Shown here piece after piece: positions 24,608 through 44,313 of a stretch of 64,000 nt of DNA (the first letter of the stretch is position 1; each line of letters opens with the position of its first letter). The DNA is from Maricaulis alexandrii. Lineage in GTDB: Bacteria; Pseudomonadota; Alphaproteobacteria; Caulobacterales; Maricaulaceae. The notes under the pieces were generated by a model. The model worked only from the letters and a program-made list of their open reading frames with translations, did no database searches and had not been told where the DNA came from. The stretch spans positions 62,001 through 126,000 of the forward strand of contig NZ_SWKP01000003.1 of the NCBI RefSeq assembly GCF_005871165.1. Direction: 5' to 3'. A program made the translations under genes and the position numbers.

Positions 24608-25735
24608 TCATCCGGCCTGGTGGCATCGGGCCTCCATCTGCGCGATCCAGTCCGTGATCAGGGCGATGCCTTCCTCGTGCCGGACGCTGCGTCCCAGCTC
24701 CGGCATCATCGAGCCGGGATCGTTGATTTCCATCCGGTAGACCAGGATGGATTCGTCCGGTTGGCCGGGCTGGATGGAGAAGCGGCGACCACCGGTCCCG
24801 CCGCCCGCTGCGATCGGCAGTTTGCAGAGGCCCAGATTGGGGCCAACCGGCGCATCCGCATTCAGGTGCAGGCCTGACGTGTCGGCCGGCCCCACCGGGT
24901 TGTGGCAATGCGCGCAATTGATGTCGAGATAGGAGCGGGCGCGGTCATCCAGCGGGGCGGACAGATCGGTGTAGACCGCCGCTTGCGGCGCTGCGTCCAG
25001 TGCGGGATGGTCCTCAAGATACCCCGCCTCGACCATAGCCGTCAGCTGGTTTTGCGCGCCGGTCGCATAGGCATACTCGCGATTGATGTGGCGCGCGGCC
25101 GGGCCGATCGGCTGGATCTGCCGCGTGGTATTGTTGATGGCATGACAGCCCGCACACTGATTGGCATTGGGCACGGCATAGGGCAGGGCCTGTCGGCTAC
25201 CATCTTCGCTGACCAGGGTGAGGTGTTGCAGATCGCCGGCGCGCTGCAGGACGGCTTCGGTCTGGTCCTCGTTCCAGACATAGGGCAGGGCGATCCATCC
25301 GCTTTCCCGATGGACCAGGATGCGGGTTTCCACGAGACGGATGTCAGACAGGTCCAGACCGTCGGGTCGCCAGCCGGTCGCGGTGGCTGTCGTCAATCGC
25401 ACTTCATCCGCAGCGTCGCCACGGGGGTAGTAGAAGGTCTTGGTGATCACCGTGCCGACGGGGAAGTCCAGGACATCGCCTTCACGATAGATCGCGTTGA
25501 CGCCGTCCGGCATCCAGATCGTGCGCTGCTTGTGGGCATAGTCCGAGAAGAGCGGCGTATTGAGGTCATAGGCGAGCACGCCCTCGGACAGGGTCAGGCT
25601 TCGCCCGTCGGAGACCATCATGCCCCAATCGCTCAGGATCGGCGGATTGCCTTCAGCAATGAAGGTCGGCGTGGCTGTCTGCTGGCCGCCGCATGCGGCC
25701 AGCAGAAGCGCGAAAGCCATCGTCAGCCAGCGCAT
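24608..25735 (-). CDS. Diheme c-type cytochrome lipoprotein, SO2930/HNE_0200 family
   Basis: A 375-residue exported lipoprotein (lipobox LLAAC, Cys15) with two c-type heme sites, CAGCH at about 194-198 and CAHCH at about 274-278. Its overall pattern (NTPLFSDYAHKQRTIWMPDG, GTVITKTFYY, INCAHCHNP) matches the family known as HNE_0200/SO2930, defined by co-occurrence with a beta-helix protein. No enzymatic function has been established for the family, to my knowledge. It probably transfers electrons at the outer membrane or in the periplasm. ATG 25735 shares one base with the stop of the beta-helix gene (TAATG), so the two are coupled. Confidence 0.88.
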   Translation of the reverse strand: MRWLTMAFALLLAACGGQQTATPTFIAEGNPPILSDWGMMVSDGRSLTLSEGVLAYDLNTPLFSDYAHKQRTIWMPDGVNAIYREGDVLDFPVGTVITKTFYYPRGDAADEVRLTTATATGWRPDGLDLSDIRLVETRILVHRESGWIALPYVWNEDQTEAVLQRAGDLQHLTLVSEDGSRQALPYAVPNANQCAGCHAINNTTRQIQPIGPAARHINREYAYATGAQNQLTAMVEAGYLEDHPALDAAPQAAVYTDLSAPLDDRARSYLDINCAHCHNPVGPADTSGLHLNADAPVGPNLGLCKLPIAAGGGTGGRRFSIQPGQPDESILVYRMEINDPGSMMPELGRSVRHEEGIALITDWIAQMEARCHQAG

Positions 25736-26985
25736 TACGGGTTCGCAAGCGCCAGTTCGACCGCCGGAAGCGGATCCAGGGAGCATTGGTGCGCCTCGGT
25801 CACCACGGACGGGTTTTCATAGCCATTGGGGCCATCCGCATTGACCAGTCCGGCTTCGCCATTGTTCAGGCAGATGCGGAGTTCGGCCGGCATCTCGCCA
25901 TCGACGAGCTTGTCGGCATCGAAATATCCGTCCCACAACACGTCGGGCATGCGGCCCAGCGGGCCAGCGACGACGAGTTTGAGGCCTTGCAGGTCCAGCC
26001 CGTCCGGATTGTTGCCGCCGCCGGAGAAGGCATTGCCGTGGATATGGATGCCCTCGGGATAGGGATCGAAATCCTCCTGCACGGCATAGTCGGAATACCC
26101 CGTCGAATGCAGGGAGGAGATGATGATATTGGCGGTCCGGTTGTCGGCGATCTGATTATCGAAAATCTCGACCTGGTCGTTGGAATTCACAACGATGCCG
26201 GACCCGGCCGGGATGGAGGCAACCGGCGTGCCTTCATGTCCGAAATTGCCGGTATTGTTGGCGAAGACATGATTGTTGTAGACGCGCGTCCAATAGCCTG
26301 GCTGTGGCAGGTTGGGCATGTTGAAGACCAGGATGCCGCCCGTATTCTCGGTCGCGACATTCTCGTAGACGTCCGCGCCGATCGTGTTCTCGATCTCGAT
26401 CCCGGCGACATTGCGTTCGGCCCGGTTCCGGCGCACCACGACATTGCGGGATTGGCCGACATAGATGCCAGCATCGGCTGCGCCGATGGCGATGGAATCC
26501 TCCACCAACACATTCGTGGTCTGGACCGGATAGATCCCGTAGGCGCCGTTATTCGTGTCCGGACCATTGGTCCATTCCACGCGGATGCCGCGAATGATGA
26601 TGTTCTCGCCCTCATTCACCTTCAGCCCGTCGCCGATCGTATCCTCGATGGCGAGGTCCTCGATGGTGAAGTCGCTGGCGGTGACCAGAAGGCCTTCCGC
26701 ACCCTGAGCCTGGTCCTGGAAGGACAGAATGGTGCGGTCGGCGCCCTGGCCGCGGATCGTGACACCGTCCACGGTCAGGCTGAGCGAACGGTCAAAGGCG
26801 AATACGCCTTCGGGAATCTCGATCACATCACCCGGCTGGGCGTCGATGAGTTGCTCGATCAGCTGGTTCTGATAGCTGCGGTCGGCGCTGGCCACGTCCC
26901 GCTCCGCCGGCCCGCCGCACCCGGCGAGCAGCAGGCTGGACAAGCCCAGCCCGGCGCCGACCCATGTCGCGATATCCTGTTTCAC
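25735..26985 (-). CDS. Parallel beta-helix lipoprotein paired with diheme cytochrome
   Basis: A 416-residue lipoprotein (lipobox LLLAGC, Cys23) made of right-handed parallel beta-helix turns: short repeats such as NVVVRRNRAERNVAGIEIEN run from about residue 60 to 330. It belongs to the beta-helix family that regularly occurs beside HNE_0200-type cytochromes. Beta-helix folds often bind or cleave polysaccharides, but no catalytic set is recognisable here. A TGAACATTGTTCA palindrome lies 49 bp upstream and a hairpin (27001-27026) lies in the leader, so expression is probably controlled. Confidence 0.87.
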   Translation of the reverse strand: MKQDIATWVGAGLGLSSLLLAGCGGPAERDVASADRSYQNQLIEQLIDAQPGDVIEIPEGVFAFDRSLSLTVDGVTIRGQGADRTILSFQDQAQGAEGLLVTASDFTIEDLAIEDTIGDGLKVNEGENIIIRGIRVEWTNGPDTNNGAYGIYPVQTTNVLVEDSIAIGAADAGIYVGQSRNVVVRRNRAERNVAGIEIENTIGADVYENVATENTGGILVFNMPNLPQPGYWTRVYNNHVFANNTGNFGHEGTPVASIPAGSGIVVNSNDQVEIFDNQIADNRTANIIISSLHSTGYSDYAVQEDFDPYPEGIHIHGNAFSGGGNNPDGLDLQGLKLVVAGPLGRMPDVLWDGYFDADKLVDGEMPAELRICLNNGEAGLVNADGPNGYENPSVVTEAHQCSLDPLPAVELALANP

Positions 26986-27000
26986 AATACACTCTCCCCG

Positions 27001-27026
27001 TCTGAGCCCTTTTTCAGGGCTTCAGA
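27001..27026 (-). other. Leader hairpin upstream of beta-helix gene
   Basis: TCTGA-GCCCT and AGGGC-T-TCAGA form an interrupted inverted repeat with a short T-rich loop, 16-41 bases before the beta-helix start codon. It lacks a T-run on the minus strand, so it looks more like a leader structure or mRNA stabiliser than a terminator. Confidence 0.4.
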
Positions 27027-27033
27027 CTAGGAG

Positions 27034-27046
27034 TGAACATTGTTCA
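27034..27046. promoter_or_regulatory. Operator candidate TGAACATTGTTCA (site 1)
   Basis: A perfect 6+1+6 palindrome, TGAACA-T-TGTTCA, 49 bp upstream of the beta-helix start and 38 bp beyond the hxlR-family gene stop. The same core TGAAC-N3-GTTCA occurs at 37789, 40723 and 43156. Confidence 0.65.
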
Positions 27047-27083: not shown

Positions 27084-27554
27084 TCAGCCGGCCTCGCGCA
27101 TGGAGGACGAACCGCCGCGCTCACGAGAGCCGAGTTCGCGGTGGGTGACTTCCTCACCGCTCTCATTGGCCACCTGGATCGGGGCGAGCGTTTCGCCGGT
27201 CCGGCTGTCGAAGACCTCAACCGGGGCCTCGTCATCGCCGTAGATCCACTTGTCACCCCATTGCTGCATCGCCATGAGGATCGGGAAGAGGGCTTCGCCG
27301 CGCTCGGTCAGGACGTATTCCTGACGCTGGCCACGCACGCCAACTTCTTCACGAACCATGATGCCATTGTCGACAAGCTTGTTGAGGCGGTCGGTCAGGA
27401 TGTTTTTCGCGATTCCGGTGCTTTCGTGGAAATCCGAAAAACGGCGGGCGCCTTTCATGGCGTCCCGGACGATCAAGAGCGTCCACCAGTCCCCAACCTG
27501 GTTCAAAGTCTGTGCAATCGCACACGACATTTCGTCGAAACGTTTCCGACCCAT
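27084..27554 (-). CDS. HxlR-family winged-helix transcriptional regulator
   Basis: A 156-residue DNA-binding protein with the HxlR pattern: Cys near the N-terminus (Cys11), NQVGDWWTLLIVRDAMKGARRFSDFH, GIAKNILTDRLNKLVDNGIM as recognition helix and YVLTERGEALFPILMAMQQWGD dimer helix. Many members sense electrophiles or redox state through that N-terminal Cys. ATG 27554 is preceded by CCTAAGG. It is co-directional with and directly upstream of the beta-helix/cytochrome pair, a possible target. The DNA site it recognises is unknown. Confidence 0.88.
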   Translation of the reverse strand: MGRKRFDEMSCAIAQTLNQVGDWWTLLIVRDAMKGARRFSDFHESTGIAKNILTDRLNKLVDNGIMVREEVGVRGQRQEYVLTERGEALFPILMAMQQWGDKWIYGDDEAPVEVFDSRTGETLAPIQVANESGEEVTHRELGSRERGGSSSMREAG

Positions 27555-28754: not shown

Positions 28755-28807
28755 AAACACGCACCCGAAAGAGGTGCGGGATCACAACAAAACGGGGAGG
28801 TCAGACC

Positions 28808-30583
28808 ATGTATGATCTTAAGATTACGGGCGGAATCCTGCATGACGGGTCCGGCGCGCCGGGCCGTGTCGCCGATATCGCCATCCAGGGCGGGCGCATC
28901 GCCGCCATCGGCACGGATCTGGGCGCGGCAGAGCGTACGATCGACGCCAGCGGCAAGATCGTCACGCCGGGTTTTATCGACATCCACACCCATTATGACG
29001 GCCAGGCGAGCTGGGACGACGAACTGCGTCCCTCCATCGACCATGGCGTCACCACGGCGATCATGGGCAATTGCGGCGTCGGCTTTGCGCCGGTGCGCGA
29101 TACCGACCATGACAAGCTGATCAAGCTGATGGAAGGCGTGGAGGACATTCCCGGCACGGCCCTTCACGAGGGCCTGACCTGGGACTGGGAGAGCTTCCCC
29201 GATTACCTCGACGCGCTGGCGAAAATCCCGCGCACGATCGATATCGCCGCCATGCTGCCGCACGATCCGCTGCGCATGTATGTGATGGGCGACCGGGCGG
29301 TCTTCTCCGAACCCGCCAATGATGACGATATCGCCGAAATGCGCCGCCTGACCCGCGAAGCGCTGGAGGCCGGGGCCATCGGTTTTGCGACCGGCCGGTC
29401 GGATGTCCACAAGACGTCGGATGGTGACTGGACTCCCTCCTCTGAGTCCACGCGGGAAGAACTGACGGGCATCGCCAAGGCCTTCGAGGGCCTGGGTCAT
29501 GGTGTCGTCCAGGCAGTCTCCGACTTTAACCTGGAACGGGGCGAAGAGGATTTCGATGAGGAATGGGACATCATCGCCGACTATGCCAAGGCATCGGGCC
29601 GGCCCTTTTCTTTCTCCCTCATGCAGCGCGATTTCGCGCCGGATCAGTGGCTCAAACTGATCGAACGGACCGAGACGCTGAAGAGCGAGGGCGTGGATGC
29701 CCGCATGCAGGTGGCCCCGCGCGCCATCGGTGTCTTCCTCGGCTTCAACTGCACCTTCCACCCCTTCATGGGCTATCCGACCTACAAGACGATCGCGTAT
29801 CTCTCGCTGGAAGAGCGCGTCGCAAAGATGAAGGATCCGGAATTCAAGTCGAAAGTCCTGTCGGAGAAGACGGACAAACTGTCCGGTCCGGGGTCCTCGG
29901 TGCCGCCGCTGGCCGATCTCCTGATGGAGCATATCGAGATCGTGGCCGAGAAATTCTTCCAGCTGGGCGATCCGCCGGATTACGAACAGCCGCCGGAAAA
30001 CTCTCTGGCGGCCCGCGCCCGGGAAAAGGGCGTGCCGCTGATGGAGATGATCTATGACACCCTGCTGGAGCGGGACGGTCACGAGCTCATATATCTGCCG
30101 CTCTACAATTATACCGAGCTGAATTACGACAATGTGCTCAGGATGATGGAGCACCCGCAGGCGCTCTACGGCCTGTCCGATGGCGGGGCCCATGTCGGGA
30201 CGGTCTGTGACGCCTCCATGCCGACCTACATGCTCACCCACTGGACCCGTGACCGGAAGCGGGGCCGCAAGCTGGATGTGCCGACCGTGGTCAACATGCT
30301 GACCGGCCGTCAGGCCGATTATCTGGGCATGACCGATCGCGGCTATCTGCGTGAGGGACTCAAGGCCGACATCAATGTCATCAATCTCGACCAGCTTCAG
30401 TCCGAACCGCCGCACATGGAACAGGATCTGCCAGCTGGCGGGCAGCGTCTCCTGCAAGGCGCCCGCGGCTATGACGTCACCCTCGTGTCCGGCGAGGTCG
30501 TGATGGAGAAGGGCCAGCTCACCGGCGCCCGTCCGGGCACGCTTTACCGGGCCGGTCAGGCCCGGGCGGTCGCGGCGGAGTAG
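28808..30583 (+). CDS. N-acyl-D-amino-acid deacylase-like amidohydrolase
   Basis: A 591-residue metal-dependent amidohydrolase of the D-aminoacylase group. Seen: [16 protein letters not shown] (metal His60 and His62), [24 protein letters not shown]-like substrate region, the SDGGAHVG Asp motif and a C-terminal beta-sandwich return (ADINVINLD). Family members hydrolyse N-acyl amino acids or related cyclic amides. The long insertion around residues 340-430 is usual for this branch. GGGGAGG precedes the ATG. The gene follows a BASS transporter and precedes a GFA-domain gene. Confidence 0.85.
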
Positions 30584-37788: not shown

Positions 37789-37801
37789 TGAACGCTGTTC
37801 A
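37789..37801. promoter_or_regulatory. Operator candidate TGAACGCTGTTCA (site 2)
   Basis: Palindromic core TGAAC-N3-GTTCA, 25 bp upstream of the serine hydrolase start, between it and the divergent TonB receptor gene. It matches sites 1, 3 and 4 in both half-sites. Confidence 0.65.
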
Positions 37802-37928
37802 CTGCGCAGCGTAGCAGAGATAGAGGCATTGAAAAGAGGGGTTTGGCCCGATGCAGCTTTGCCACTGTGTGAGGATTGTTTGCATCAATCAGCCATGATT
37901 TTTCGGGTTTTGGGATAAACCGGCTGAC

Positions 37929-38013: not shown

Positions 38014-40722
38014 ATGAGCAAATTCAACAAGGCGGCCGTCTTGGGCACGACCGCTATTCTTGCAGGCCTTATCGGGGCCTCCAGTGCTTTGGCGCAGGTC
38101 GACGTCATTACAGTGACGGCGCAAAAGCGCGAGCAGACGCTTCAGGATACGCCGGTATCCGTGGCGGCCGTGACCGGCGAACAGATCGAACAATCCCAGA
38201 TCCGCGATGCGGCTGACCTGCAGACCCTGGTCCCCTCGCTGCGCGTGTCCGAGTTCGCGACCTCCACGAATACCGAGTTCAACCTGCGCGGTATCGGTAC
38301 GTCGAGCTTCAACCCGGGCCTCGAACCCTCCGTGGGCGTGTTCATTGACGGTGTCTACCGTCCTCGCTCCGGCTCCGCGATCAACGACCTTTTGTCGGTT
38401 GAGCGCGTCGAAGTGATCCGGGGTCCGCAGTCGACCCTGTTCGGCCGCAACACGCCGGCGGGCGTTGTCTCGGTCATCACCCAGGAGCCGGAATTCGAAT
38501 TCGGCTATGTTGGTGAAGTGACCGTTGGCAATAACGGCATGCGCCTGGCGCGCGCCTCGGTGACCGGTCCGCTCAGCGACACGATGGCGATCCGTCTTGA
38601 TGGCACGATGCACCAGAGCGACGGCTATATCGATATCGAGGACGGCCGCAATGCGAACAACCGGGCCCGCCACTCCTGGCGCGGTCAGCTGCTCTGGAAT
38701 CCGGGCGACAGCACGGAAGTCCGCATCATTGCCGACTATGGCAATATCGACGAGAACTGCTGTGCAGCGCCGTTTGCCTATTATGATCCGATCGACCAGG
38801 GCGCGCTTGTCGGCCTGGGCGGTACGGCCATCCCGGCCGATCCGAACGGGGGCGACCGGATTGCCATTGATGGTGATCTGAACACCCAGCTCGTGACCAG
38901 CGGCATCTCGGCCGAAATCAACCATGATTTCGACGCCTTCACCCTGACCTCGATCACGGCCTTCCGGACCTATGACGAAGACCAGAATTTCGACGCGGAC
39001 TTCTCTGATCTCGATCTGGTGAGCCTGCGGAATATCCAGAACCAGTATGACAGTTTCACCCAGGAGTTCCGCGTGACCTCCACGGGCGACAACTTCATGG
39101 ACTGGATGGGTGGTGCCTTCTACTACCGCAATGACCTGAACTTCGCGAACACGACGCCCTATGGCGCCGATGCGCGCACCTTCTTCGATGCGGCTTCGGC
39201 TCCGTCCGTGGCGCCGATCGTCGCCGGTCTCGGCCTGCCGGCCGGTACGGGTGGTGTCAGCCTGCTGGAAGTCTTCCTGAACATGAATGCGGCGGCCGGT
39301 GTCGGCAATTTCGTGCCGCTTCCGTCCGGGAATGCTGCTCTGCCGACCACGCCGGCCGAGGGCTTCGTGTCCACGAGCCACGGCCTGATCTCGGAAGAGT
39401 ACCAGTACAACACGGAAGCCTGGTCGGTCTTCGGTCAGCTCGATTTCCATCTCACGGACCAGTTCACCCTGACCCTGGGTGGCCGCTATTCCGACGAGAG
39501 CAAGGAGATGGAGACCTTCATCAATCAGCCCGATCCGCTGTCGGCCTTCTCCTTCGCCGATCTGGGCCAGGATCTGCGTCTGGTCTCGCCGGGCACGTGT
39601 GATCCGGGTCTCTTCCCGGTCATTGGCGGTGATGCCTGTGCCTATCTGGTGCCGGCGCTTCTGCTGGGTCAGGGCCTGACGCAATATCCGGACGGCACAC
39701 CGATCAACCCGGCCAACCCGCTGCCGGCGATCTATGCCGGCACGGCGCTGAACCCGCTGCTGGGCTTCACGGCCTTCCAGAACTTCCCGCCGGTCAATGC
39801 GGGCAATTTCCCGACCTCGCGGAGCGACACCAACTTCTCGGGCAATATCATCCTGTCCTATGACGTGTCGGATGATCTGAACCTGTATGCGTCCTACGCG
39901 ACGGGCTTCAAGCCGGGCGGTTTCAACGTTTCCACCAACGCCGCCTTCACCGGCGTGTTCGAGTTCGAGGAAGAAATCTCCGAGAGCTTCGAGATCGGGG
40001 CGAAGGGTTCGCTCTTCAACAACCGCATGATCTACTCGGTGGCCTATTTCAACCAGACCATCGAAGACTTCCAGACCAACAATTTCGTGGGCAATGGTTT
40101 CGCCCTCGAGAATGCGGGTTCGATCGATGTCTCCGGTATCGAGTTTGAAGGCCAGTGGTCGCCGATCGACAATCTGCTCTTCACCGGTGGCTTCACCTAT
40201 CTGTTCGACAGCTCGTACGGCGACTATGAGTTCGCCCCGTGTCCGGACGGCTTCGGTGGTGTCGGTGTCTGGGATGCCGGTGACCCGAACTTCGCGCTCT
40301 GCGAACTGGGCAATGAGCGGACCAATGATGCCGGTGTGACCGCGCTGTTCAACGATCTGACCGGTCGCGATCGCGGTAATTCGGAACTCGTCGGTGCCCT
40401 GACCGCCACCTATACGATGCCCCTGTCCAATGGCTGGGAAATCGACTGGCGCGGTGAGGCGACCCACGTCTCCGAATTCCTGCACACCACCTCTCAGGAC
40501 CCGCGTCCGTTCGCGATGCAGGATGCCTTCACCCTGTTCAATGCCTCGGTCACGATCGGCAGCGATACGGGCAGCTGGGCCCTGCAGCTGTGGACCCGCA
40601 ACCTCACCGACGAGGACTACACCAAGGGTGGTTTCCCGTCGGTCGGTTATCTGGGGACGTCCTATAACGTCTATCCGGGCGACCCGCAGACCTATGGTGT
40701 GACCTTCCGCCTCCGCGGTTAG
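38014..40722 (+). CDS. TonB-dependent outer membrane receptor
   Basis: A 902-residue receptor with a signal peptide (cleavage near ALAQ), plug domain (ITVTAQKREQTLQDTPVSVAAVTGEQI through VERVEVIRGPQSTLFGRNTPAGVVSVITQ) and a 22-strand barrel ending in a C-terminal aromatic-pattern strand. This is the Caulobacter/sphingomonad-type receptor, often used for carbohydrates, terpenoids or other organic nutrients rather than siderophores. Substrate unknown. ATG 38014 follows AGGGGAGA. It is divergent from the hydrolase/GMC/aldehyde dehydrogenase operon; a 13-bp operator lies at each end of the gene region. Confidence 0.93.
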   Translation: MSKFNKAAVLGTTAILAGLIGASSALAQVDVITVTAQKREQTLQDTPVSVAAVTGEQIEQSQIRDAADLQTLVPSLRVSEFATSTNTEFNLRGIGTSSFNPGLEPSVGVFIDGVYRPRSGSAINDLLSVERVEVIRGPQSTLFGRNTPAGVVSVITQEPEFEFGYVGEVTVGNNGMRLARASVTGPLSDTMAIRLDGTMHQSDGYIDIEDGRNANNRARHSWRGQLLWNPGDSTEVRIIADYGNIDENCCAAPFAYYDPIDQGALVGLGGTAIPADPNGGDRIAIDGDLNTQLVTSGISAEINHDFDAFTLTSITAFRTYDEDQNFDADFSDLDLVSLRNIQNQYDSFTQEFRVTSTGDNFMDWMGGAFYYRNDLNFANTTPYGADARTFFDAASAPSVAPIVAGLGLPAGTGGVSLLEVFLNMNAAAGVGNFVPLPSGNAALPTTPAEGFVSTSHGLISEEYQYNTEAWSVFGQLDFHLTDQFTLTLGGRYSDESKEMETFINQPDPLSAFSFADLGQDLRLVSPGTCDPGLFPVIGGDACAYLVPALLLGQGLTQYPDGTPINPANPLPAIYAGTALNPLLGFTAFQNFPPVNAGNFPTSRSDTNFSGNIILSYDVSDDLNLYASYATGFKPGGFNVSTNAAFTGVFEFEEEISESFEIGAKGSLFNNRMIYSVAYFNQTIEDFQTNNFVGNGFALENAGSIDVSGIEFEGQWSPIDNLLFTGGFTYLFDSSYGDYEFAPCPDGFGGVGVWDAGDPNFALCELGNERTNDAGVTALFNDLTGRDRGNSELVGALTATYTMPLSNGWEIDWRGEATHVSEFLHTTSQDPRPFAMQDAFTLFNASVTIGSDTGSWALQLWTRNLTDEDYTKGGFPSVGYLGTSYNVYPGDPQTYGVTFRLRG

Positions 40723-40735
40723 TGAACATCGTTCA
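40723..40735. promoter_or_regulatory. Operator candidate TGAACATCGTTCA (site 3)
   Basis: Core TGAAC-N3-GTTCA placed directly after the TonB receptor stop codon and about 85 bp before the next gene. It differs from site 1 by one base in the centre. A terminator-like hairpin follows at 40750, so its target promoter is unclear. Confidence 0.5.
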
Positions 40736-40819: not shown

Positions 40820-41233
40820 ATGCTCATTCTCTGGGTCTTGCTGGGCTCGGTCGCCGGGATCTCCGCCATGGTGGCGTTCAATGCCTGGCTGGGCCTCTAT
40901 GCGCCCGCTCAACTGGCGGATCTCGATGAGGCGATTGCCCGTCTGGACGCCGACTCCGTGGGCTTCGAGGCCGGGGAGGGTGTCCTGGCGCCCGATGGGA
41001 AGAGCGCTCTCGTGACCGATGTCGAGCGGGACCGCCTGGCCCTTCTGGTCGCGCGTGGCAGTGACTTCGTCATTCGTTATCTGGATCCGGGCCAGGTCCT
41101 CAGCGTGTCCACGCAGGACTGCGACATCACGCTCAGACTCAAAGATTTCACCTTTGCGCCGGCGCGGCTCTCCTTCGAGACGCCCGAACAGGCCCGTGAC
41201 TGGGCCGGCCGGCTGGAAGCCTTGCAGGGATAA
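40820..41233 (+). CDS. Hypothetical single-pass membrane protein
   Basis: A 137-residue protein with one N-terminal membrane helix (MLILWVLLGSVAGISAMVAFNAWLGL) and a soluble domain with an alternating hydrophobic pattern. The domain ends FETPEQARDWAGRLEAL, reminiscent of PH-like or bPH domains but not assignable. It is followed by the hydroxylase-family gene after 3 bp, so the two are probably cotranscribed and may work together. Confidence 0.65.
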   Translation: MLILWVLLGSVAGISAMVAFNAWLGLYAPAQLADLDEAIARLDADSVGFEAGEGVLAPDGKSALVTDVERDRLALLVARGSDFVIRYLDPGQVLSVSTQDCDITLRLKDFTFAPARLSFETPEQARDWAGRLEALQG

Positions 41234-41236
41234 GCC

Positions 41237-42172
41237 ATGGACGCGCCCGCCTTCGTCGAGAACTTCGATCCGGTCTGGATTGCCATTCCCTTCTTCGTGC
41301 TGTCCGTTTTCGGCGAAATGCTGTTCGCCCGCTTCACCGGCAAGGCCCGGTTCGAGGCCCGCGACAGTGCCGCCAGCCTGATGATGGGTTTGGGCAATAC
41401 CGTGTCGGGTGTGATTTTCGGCGGGCTGATCGGCCTGTGGGCCCTGTTCGTCTACGAACACCGTCTGACCACGATCGGCTTTGCCTGGTGGGCCTGGATC
41501 CTGGCCTTCATGCTGGATGATTTCGTCTATTACTGGTCGCACCGCTGGGCACATACCGTGCGCTGGTTCTGGGCGGATCATGTCGTCCACCATTCTTCCC
41601 AGCACTACAATCTCACCACCGCGCTGCGGCAGCCCTGGCTGAACCCGCTGACCCTGAAATTCCTGTGGCTGGGCTCGGCCCTGATCTTCCTCGGCTTCCA
41701 TCCGGCCATGGTCGCCTTTGTCGGTTCGCTCAACCTGATCTACCAGTTCTGGATCCATACCGAGGCGATCCGCAAAATGCCGCCCTGGTTCGAGGCGGTG
41801 ATGAACACGCCGTCCCACCACCGCGTCCATCACGCGACCAATCCGCTCTATCTGGACCGCAATTATGCGGGCGTCTTCATCATCTGGGACAAGATGTTCG
41901 GGACCTTCCAGCCTGAGCTGGACGACGAGAAATGCCGCTACGGGATCGTGAAGAATCTGGGCACCTACAATCCGATCAAGATCAGCCTGCATGAATGGTG
42001 GGGGATTTTGAAGGACATGGCGTCGGCGAAGAATCCCAAAGAGGCGTTGATGTATCTTCTGGCACCGCCCGGCTGGTCGCCGGACGGCTCGCGGCAGACC
42101 TCGCACCAGATCCTGGATCGCTGGAAGGCGCGTCAGGCCGACAAGCCGGATATGCCCACAGCCGCCGAGTAA
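41237..42172 (+). CDS. Fatty acid hydroxylase/sterol desaturase family diiron membrane enzyme
   Basis: A 311-residue integral membrane protein with the family's eight-histidine pattern: HRWAH at 102-106, HVVHH at 115-119 and HHRVHH at 194-199, between hydrophobic helices. Members use a diiron centre and O2 to hydroxylate or desaturate sterols, carotenoids, fatty acids or ether lipids. The NTPSHHRVHHATNP and YAGVFIIWDKMFGTF blocks are typical of the bacterial alkylglycerol-monooxygenase-like branch. Substrate unknown. Nearby GMC, aldehyde dehydrogenase and diiron genes suggest an oxidative lipid or terpenoid pathway. Confidence 0.87.
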   Translation: MDAPAFVENFDPVWIAIPFFVLSVFGEMLFARFTGKARFEARDSAASLMMGLGNTVSGVIFGGLIGLWALFVYEHRLTTIGFAWWAWILAFMLDDFVYYWSHRWAHTVRWFWADHVVHHSSQHYNLTTALRQPWLNPLTLKFLWLGSALIFLGFHPAMVAFVGSLNLIYQFWIHTEAIRKMPPWFEAVMNTPSHHRVHHATNPLYLDRNYAGVFIIWDKMFGTFQPELDDEKCRYGIVKNLGTYNPIKISLHEWWGILKDMASAKNPKEALMYLLAPPGWSPDGSRQTSHQILDRWKARQADKPDMPTAAE

Positions 42173-43155: not shown

Positions 43156-43168
43156 TGAACATTGTTCA
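43156..43168. promoter_or_regulatory. Operator candidate TGAACATTGTTCA (site 4)
   Basis: Identical to site 1 and extended here to the 15-bp palindrome GTGAACATTGTTCAC (43155-43169). It sits 57 bp upstream of the diiron protein start, a usual place for repressor binding at a promoter. Confidence 0.65.
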
Positions 43169-43224
43169 CCAAAGAGCAAGTTCATCCTGACAACGATTGG
43201 TCGCCCCTGGGGAGGATTAGCGCC

Positions 43225-44313
43225 ATGGCATCGCTTCGCGATCTCTATCCGATGCCGGATCTCGACAAGCACTGGTCGGTTCCGCAGCAATTCGACGCCA
43301 CTTTCGATTTCGAATACGACGACGGTCGCTCGACGCTCATGCACTTGTACCAGAAGGGCAAGGACATGCAGTGGGATGCGGTCAACCGTATCGACTGGAG
43401 CCTTGAGCTCGACTTCGAAAATCCGATGCAGCTGCCCGATGAGGGCATTGCCCTGCACGGGTCTCCCATGTGGGAGAAGATGACGAAGAAGGAACGCATC
43501 GAGTTCCGCCGTCATGCCCAGTCCTGGAATATCTCGCAATTCATGCAGGGCGAGCAGGCCGCACTGATCTGCGCCGCCAAGATCGTCGAGTCCGTTCCCG
43601 ATCTCGACGCCAAATTCTATGCCGCGACCCAGGTGATGGATGAAGCCCGTCACGTCGAGGCCTACAAGAATCTGATGAAGAAGTTCGGCGTCGCCTATCC
43701 GATGACCGAACCGCTGCGCCAACTGGTCGATGAAGCCCTGCGCGACAGCCGCTGGGACTTTACCTATCTGGCCATGCAGGTCGTCATTGAAGGTCTGGCC
43801 CTGGCCGCTTTCGGGACGATCCGTGACCTGGCCCAGAACCCGCTGGCCAAGATGGTCAATGCCTATGTCATGGAAGACGAGGCCCGCCATGTGGCCTTCG
43901 GCCGTCTCTCCCTGCGCGATTATTATCCGCACCTGACCCAGGCCGAGCGCGACGAGCGCGAGGAATTCCTGGTCGAGGCCTGCTATCACATGCGGGACCG
44001 TTTCCAGGCCCGGGAAGTCTATGAAGTGATGGGCCTGCCGGTCGAGGAATGCATCGAATGGGCTGAGAAGTCGGAGATGAACCAGCTCTTCCGCACGCTC
44101 CTCTTCCAGCGCATCGTGCCGGTGGTGAAGGATATCGGCCTGTGGGGTCCGAAGATCCAGAAGGCCTATGCCGATATGGGCGTGCTGCACTATGCCGACC
44201 AGGATCTCGACCTGCTCGCCAAGCAGGATGAGGAAGTCGCCCGCGATCTGGACACCAAGCACCAGGATGTCCGCACGGCCTATGTCCAGGCCGTCGCCGG
44301 TCACGCAGAATAA
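43225..44313 (+). CDS. Ferritin-like four-helix-bundle diiron protein
   Basis: A 362-residue soluble protein with a complete carboxylate-bridged diiron ligand set: Glu110 (QGEQAAL), Glu140-x2-His143 (MDEARHVEAY), Glu189 (VIEGLAL) and Glu219-x2-His222 (EDEARHVAFG). This is the arrangement of ribonucleotide reductase R2-like oxidases, AurF-type N-oxygenases and acyl desaturases, so O2-dependent oxidation is likely, substrate unknown. The start at ATG 43225 follows GGGGAGGA. It is a single gene with its own operator-like palindrome and a strong terminator. Confidence 0.85.
   Translation: MASLRDLYPMPDLDKHWSVPQQFDATFDFEYDDGRSTLMHLYQKGKDMQWDAVNRIDWSLELDFENPMQLPDEGIALHGSPMWEKMTKKERIEFRRHAQSWNISQFMQGEQAALICAAKIVESVPDLDAKFYAATQVMDEARHVEAYKNLMKKFGVAYPMTEPLRQLVDEALRDSRWDFTYLAMQVVIEGLALAAFGTIRDLAQNPLAKMVNAYVMEDEARHVAFGRLSLRDYYPHLTQAERDEREEFLVEACYHMRDRFQAREVYEVMGLPVEECIEWAEKSEMNQLFRTLLFQRIVPVVKDIGLWGPKIQKAYADMGVLHYADQDLDLLAKQDEEVARDLDTKHQDVRTAYVQAVAGHAE

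Follow-up and report, generated by a model that had tools for sequence, protein, structure and literature searches.

The locus lies in a 64,000-nucleotide stretch of the genome of Maricaulis alexandrii (contig NZ_SWKP01000003.1, positions 62,001 to 126,000; hereinafter the window). It centers on two lipoprotein genes on a shared strand, in which the gene for a right-handed parallel β-helix protein (BH) is placed directly upstream of the gene for a diheme cytochrome (CYT). These genes and the features preceding them are as follows (L numbers below denote loci and G000 denotes the host genome):

24608..25735, minus strand: CYT, diheme c-type cytochrome lipoprotein (TIGR03806, "SO2930 family"), 375 aa, ATG start
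25735..26985, minus strand: BH, right-handed parallel β-helix lipoprotein (TIGR03805), 416 aa, GTG start
about 26997..27030, minus strand: leader hairpin, placed after the operator and before the BH Shine-Dalgarno sequence (-19.6 kcal/mol, z -4.1)
27034..27046, no strand assigned: palindromic operator TGAACAATGTTCA before BH-CYT, 49 nt upstream of the BH start
27084..27554, minus strand: HxlR-family winged-helix regulator (PF01638, 80.3 bits versus a cut-off of 20.8), in the same direction as and directly upstream of BH

The two genes are coupled by a TAATG junction, in which the last A of the BH stop codon TAA is also the first A of the CYT ATG, at 25735, and the lipoboxes of BH and CYT read LLAGC and LLAAC. 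Coordinates, strand, overlap, and both lipoboxes could thus be read in the sequence as the initial annotation had described them. Profile searches likewise bear out the family assignment that it had made, with BH scoring 450.8 bits against TIGR03805 (curated cut-off 141.5) and CYT scoring 391.2 bits against TIGR03806 (curated cut-off 313.3). Each occurs as a single copy in the 3.35-Mb host genome. The Maricaulis pair is one more member of a known family pair without an assigned function, identical to it in order, direction, and coupling and with no family-level difference; what its operon adds is the adjoining HxlR gene and a shared palindromic operator. In the literature searched, we found no functional paper on TIGR03805/TIGR03806, HNE_0200, or the SO2930 family, and SO_2931 turned up there only in electron transfer and transcriptome contexts.

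The pairing of BH and CYT is established across genomes. CYT was recovered above the cut-off in 11 of 240 alphaproteobacterial genomes, and BH adjoins it in all 11 (Fisher P = 3e-17); two further genomes of this sample possess a divergent BH alone, without CYT. Among 80 loci drawn from GTDB genomes of Proteobacteria, Bacteroidota, Acidobacteria, and Planctomycetes, BH is adjacent to CYT in 78, a count that includes L088 despite one intervening gene, and the two exceptions are a locus at a contig edge (L080) and one with no BH in 10 kb (L066). The co-occurrence previously claimed for the two families therefore holds. The pair was above the cut-off in 37 of the 399 genomes of a phylum sample and is present in each of the 19 sampled genomes of Maricaulis. 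A mirror-tree correlation of 0.85 between BH and CYT, computed without a species-tree control, was left out of the evidence. Individual loci display further arrangements: a Myxococcota metagenome-assembled genome codes for CYT (L066:9956-11161) with the 10 kb upstream free of any BH, Flavobacterium sp. SUN052 (L088:1218-10960) has PSCyt1-type cytochrome genes before BH and a 397-aa gene between BH and CYT, and a member of the Bryobacteraceae (Acidobacteriota; L070:7427-9941) has two BH genes in tandem followed by CYT.

In six genomes from four genera (L187 to L192), the two proteins are moreover joined in a single chain, with BH N terminal and CYT C terminal in products of 880 to 1,019 aa (881 aa in L187); such fusions are the strongest evidence for the predicted physical complex. 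Beyond these, genomes without CYT (L238 and L239) contain a divergent BH with its own C-terminal monoheme CxxCH cytochrome c domain. In both (L238:6508-9341 and L239:6475-9245), a gene for a CCP_MauG diheme protein is directly followed by the BH-cytochrome c fusion, and the two could possibly constitute a maturation pair. Conversely, in L193 to L195 the CYT domain is found C terminal to a glucose/sorbosone dehydrogenase (GSDH; PF07995) domain, accompanied in L195 by CBM26 and PSD domains. The homology of the L193 domain to CYT is firm (hhalign, 99.9%), both CxxCH motifs are retained in L193, L194, and L195, and an aligned Met is present in L193 and L194. Hence, on the basis of domain architectures, one cytochrome module appears behind two domain types, and one β-helix appears to have recruited two different cytochromes. 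This pattern of swaps fits, without proving, an electron-acceptor module joined to a substrate-oxidizing module. The redox complex envisaged in the initial annotation gains strong indirect support from the fusions of all three kinds, but the chemistry that we attach to it is conjectural. Very large proteins combining GSDH and CYT domains were observed at L193:5869-9459, L194:7383-13499, L195:5380-12489, and L196:5720-12193, some of which add CBM26, F5/8C, ThuA, or PSD (DUF1587/1588/1592/1595) domains; the scan for these additional domains covered L193 to L195.

CYT contains the two heme sites noted at the outset, namely, C194-AGC-H198 (CAGCH) and C274-AHC-H278 (CAHCH), and both CxxCH motifs are invariant in 90 CYT sequences, as is Met344. 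This conservation makes Met344 a candidate ligand of the second heme (C274-H278), and no conserved distal His or Met was found for the first heme (C194-H198) in the same 90 sequences. H216 and H276 were considered as distal ligands and ruled out because neither is universal: 67 of the 90 sequences have H at position 216 and the remainder have N, Q, or Y, and L193 has F at position 276. The single-chain AF2 model of CYT (pLDDT 92) retrieved no match in a Foldseek search of the PDB, and PDB sequence searches with BH, CYT, and their profiles returned nothing convincing.

The parallel β-helix proposed for BH is supported by its score against TIGR03805, by the β-helix fold of its single-chain AF2 model (pLDDT 94), and by matches to PDB structures. 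The best of these are the A-modules of the AlgE4/AlgE6 epimerases, at TM scores of 0.50 to 0.58, a level that is generic for right-handed β-helices. AlgE-type A-modules and other β-helix lyases and epimerases are the nearest solved folds, and the groove on the PB1 side is conserved in BH; unlike them, BH shows only about 19% identity, lacks a conserved His, and matches no lyase or epimerase family. Mannuronan C5-epimerases have conserved catalytic His/Asp residues. BH does not share this catalytic set, as no His column reaches 80% among 88 BH sequences. The residues that are invariant or nearly so in these 88 sequences are D119, K122, Y149, Y152, D171, Y175, Q178, E197, E199, and N200, and the alternation of the modeled strands predicts that they lie on or beside the outward face of the PB1 strands. 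Six of them, Y149, D171, Y175, E197, E199, and N200, are kept even in the BH-CYT fusions and in L238/L239. Neither a known redox motif nor any Cys, His, or Met conserved across the 88 sequences is seen in the groove, which thus offers no basis for assigning a known redox cofactor.

We identified a distinct subfamily of TonB-dependent receptors whose members, in the stretches retrieved for 154 loci, occur exclusively within about 1 kb of BH-CYT, at 26 of the loci. Membership was defined by a score of >700 bits against a profile built from 14 such neighbors, with 12 further cases lying outside the build; the position-picked ORFs TBDR_e, TBDR_f, and TBDR_g were left out of the receptor counts. 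Amidases, sulfatases, and an Amidohydro_3 protein also recur near the pair, and an alkylsulfatase-type protein was seen there once. A FadL gene lies 28 bp upstream of the BH-CYT fusion of L190. The sole useful locus from a plasmid search, in Novosphingobium (L142), has alcohol and aldehyde dehydrogenases and an AraC regulator near BH-CYT. Here, an IS5-family transposase gene splits the TonB receptor gene beside BH-CYT (L142:2855-6671). The Amidohydro_3 (N-acyl-D-amino-acid-deacylase-like) gene occurs near BH in several genera (28757-30583 in the window; L015 to L018; L239:9249-11054) and, in Maricaulis, Hyphobacterium, and L018, is accompanied by a bile-acid:sodium-symporter-type gene.

The operator before BH recurs farther along the window, together with the following genes:

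37789..37801, no strand assigned: second copy of the operator, TGAACGCTGTTCA, with divergent BLAC-GMC-ALDH-SDR genes on one side and the TonB receptor gene on the other
38014..40722, plus strand: TonB-dependent receptor of the operator set (PF00593/PF07715); the ORF opens at 37876
40723..40735, no strand assigned: third copy of the operator, TGAACATCGTTCA, followed by a small gene (40820-41233) and then by the FA_hydroxylase gene
41237..42172, plus strand: fatty acid hydroxylase/sterol desaturase superfamily protein (PF04116, E = 1e-29)
43156..43168, no strand assigned: fourth copy of the operator, TGAACATTGTTCA, in front of the AurF-like gene
43207..44313, plus strand: AurF-like diiron protein of the operator set (PF11583, E = 2e-20); the ORF opens at 43162

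Perfect TGAACNNNGTTCA sites number eight in the host genome, versus one for a reversed control pattern, and four of the eight lie within 16 kb of the window (clustering P of about 2e-5). The palindromic operator of the initial annotation is therefore real, but it is not a private context of BH-CYT, since four units of the window have it in common. The receptor of the operator set shows 35% identity to the pair-adjacent TonB subfamily and falls outside it. The sites at the TonB, FA_hydroxylase, and AurF genes are kept in other Maricaulis genomes (L267 to L270, of which L268 begins beyond the AurF site). An operator directly upstream of BH is also found in Hyphobacterium (L015 to L017), L018, Marinicauda (L057), L235, and L266, which makes BH-CYT a recurrent member of the operator set in this group; perfect sites are present in 10 of 148 loci, versus 0.0 in shuffles. 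The set is flanked by genes for an ScfRs regulator, isocitrate lyase, and malate synthase and by acyl-CoA dehydrogenase, AMP-ligase, MaoC, and SDR genes, a neighborhood that fits fatty-acid-type catabolism. Other copies of the site are found at G000:C1:426672 (L271), 33 bp before a gene for a 284-aa protein, and at G000:C8:266242 (L272).

Inheritance as a unit, together with fusion in some bacteria, points to BH-CYT being an unstudied envelope machine that would oxidize a bound substrate and transfer the electrons to hemes. The reading that we favor, with a probability of roughly 0.45, is that of an envelope-anchored oxidoreductase, probably in the outer membrane, in which the β-helix is the substrate subunit and the cytochrome is the electron acceptor. 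BH would bind the substrate in the groove of the PB1 strands and take part in its oxidation, and CYT would accept the electrons by means of a His/Met heme (C274-H278, Met344) and a heme (C194-H198) that lacks any conserved His or Met on its distal side. From CYT, the electrons would go on to the respiratory chain or to some other acceptor in the periplasm. In many hosts, a dedicated TonB-dependent receptor or other outer membrane channel might then import the product. For Maricaulis, the other units that share the operator suggest a hydrophobic substrate of the alcohol or ester type: they code for a TonB receptor, a set of esterase-type, GMC alcohol dehydrogenase, and aldehyde dehydrogenase proteins, a fatty acid hydroxylase, and an AurF-like oxygenase. 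As for the cell surface location previously suggested, it agrees with the lipoboxes and with the published placement of Shewanella SO_2931, the neighbor of SO_2930, among the outer membrane cytochromes (PMC12175506, PMC5829830), but we extend it to the Maricaulis protein itself only by inference.

Several observations count against this oxidoreductase. BH lacks a recognizable cofactor site, and most loci have no TonB receptor. The putative polymer or lipid substrate of the initial annotation resolves into two hints that are in conflict, with the fold and the GSDH partners pointing to glycans and the regulon and FadL pointing to lipids or hydrophobic alcohols and esters. The nearest comparisons are Cbp2D/Cbp2E of Cellvibrio and TERTU_2913/TERTU_3803 of Teredinibacter, which are secreted multidomain proteins with c-heme domains (PMC10916295). 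In TERTU_3803, a c-heme is joined to a sugar-dehydrogenase-like domain pair, reminiscent of the GSDH and CYT domains in L193 to L195; these proteins differ in having the cytochrome domains X183 and X132 and carbohydrate-binding modules. The glucose/sorbosone-dehydrogenase-like domain pair of the cytochrome-bearing Teredinibacter protein (pf08450-X173) neither bound PQQ nor oxidized glucose (PMC10916295), and this negative result, from what we regard as the only close biochemical parallel, weighs against the favored reading. A bolder version, which we consider unlikely, holds that BH represents a new class of oxidoreductase, a β-helix dehydrogenase with an unrecognized cofactor in the PB1 groove that feeds a c-type cytochrome of a fold absent from the PDB; the cofactor may be a metal or a cross-linked Tyr/Trp quinone as made by MauG-type enzymes. 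If true, this would be new in kind and would give a new role to one of the commonest protein folds.

A division of labor in the opposite sense can also be conceived, with BH only binding or presenting a polymer or glycolipid and CYT acting as the catalyst, with a peroxidase or oxygenase activity comparable to that of MauG or RoxA. The first heme, for which no conserved His or Met column could serve as a ligand, may then be high spin, and a β-helix with a PB1 groove is a common carbohydrate binder; the CCP_MauG gene adjoining the BH-cytochrome c fusion is also in line with such chemistry. However, PF03150 (CCP_MauG diheme peroxidase) is missing among the Pfam matches of CYT, the CYT domain sits behind GSDH domains in the position of a simple electron acceptor, and the domain fused to BH in L238/L239 is an ordinary monoheme cytochrome c. 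We judge a catalytic CYT rather unlikely.

We regard as quite improbable a role in metal or metallophore handling, with BH as a NosD-like carrier of copper or iron, CYT as a metalloreductase, and the TonB receptor importing the metal complex. The copper maturation protein NosD is likewise a periplasmic β-helix, BH has a weak match to the NosD-like Pfam model PF05048 (37 bits versus a cut-off of 23.6), and the adjacent TonB receptors resemble siderophore receptors. Yet BH is far under the cut-off of the NosD family model TIGR04247 (34.3 versus 300 bits) and has no conserved Cys/His/Met metal site, no nos-type genes were recognized among the neighbor families, and the operator set codes instead for esterase-type proteins, alcohol and aldehyde dehydrogenases, and oxygenases. 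A respiratory or extracellular electron outlet at the outer membrane, with CYT as the conduit and BH as its anchor to the surface matrix, draws on SO_2931, which is ranked among five outer membrane cytochromes and deleted in all-OMC strains (PMC12175506, PMC5829830). Against it, the match of CYT to PF22113 (MtrC/OmcA-type, MtrC/MtrF domain) stays below the gathering score (15.3 versus 30 bits), and the conservation of the BH groove goes far beyond what a passive anchor would require. Most hosts are aerobes that are not known to have Mtr-type conduits. We hold this alternative, too, to be quite improbable.

SO_2930 of Shewanella oneidensis gave the cytochrome family its name. L187 and L188 have a second CYT gene near the fusion gene, which, with the family name, suggests by inference that they correspond to the SO_2930/SO_2931 region of Shewanella; a genus with two nearby CYT members, one of them fused to BH, fits that region, in which the pair would probably be both fused and duplicated and which has been studied only for extracellular electron transfer. 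The pair is widespread, and its relatives are counted among the outer membrane cytochromes of Shewanella. The fusions, the separate cytochrome fusion, the GSDH swaps, the TonB partner, and the common operator turn substrate, cofactor, and regulator into testable questions.

The remaining context ascribed to the pair, the HxlR gene and the leader hairpin, is of narrower distribution. The HxlR gene is present and above the PF01638 cut-off as stated, but among the database loci (±10 kb) it neighbors the pair in Maricaulis only, and the neighbor data of other genera rule it out as a conserved partner of BH-CYT outside Maricaulis. Since the operator stands at BH with no HxlR nearby in L015 to L018, L057, and L235, HxlR is at most a candidate for the regulator acting at this site. 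The leader hairpin folds in the window, and a similarly strong one is found in L133 (z -4.7) and one of different sequence in L129 (z -2.7), but none was found in L132 (z -0.7) or L014 (z 0.0), indicating weak conservation confined to the nearest relatives. Neither an intrinsic terminator nor a sigma-70 promoter was found in the leader. All 19 Maricaulis genomes, even those with BH-CYT at another place, have an HxlR ortholog (77 to 100%), which implies two locations for the pair in this genus. Type A pairs lie between HxlR and a gene for a 104-aa protein, and that of the window and seven other loci form a clade with a support of 1.0; the gene order of the window is wholly kept in L014 (Maricaulis sp.). 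Type B pairs lie elsewhere and are followed by a TonB receptor in 7 of 14 stretches scanned, one of which (L141) comes from another genus of the family. At L268:15953-16915, HxlR is followed by the 104-aa and M28 genes with no BH-CYT between them, and one genome (G256) has type A and type B copies together.
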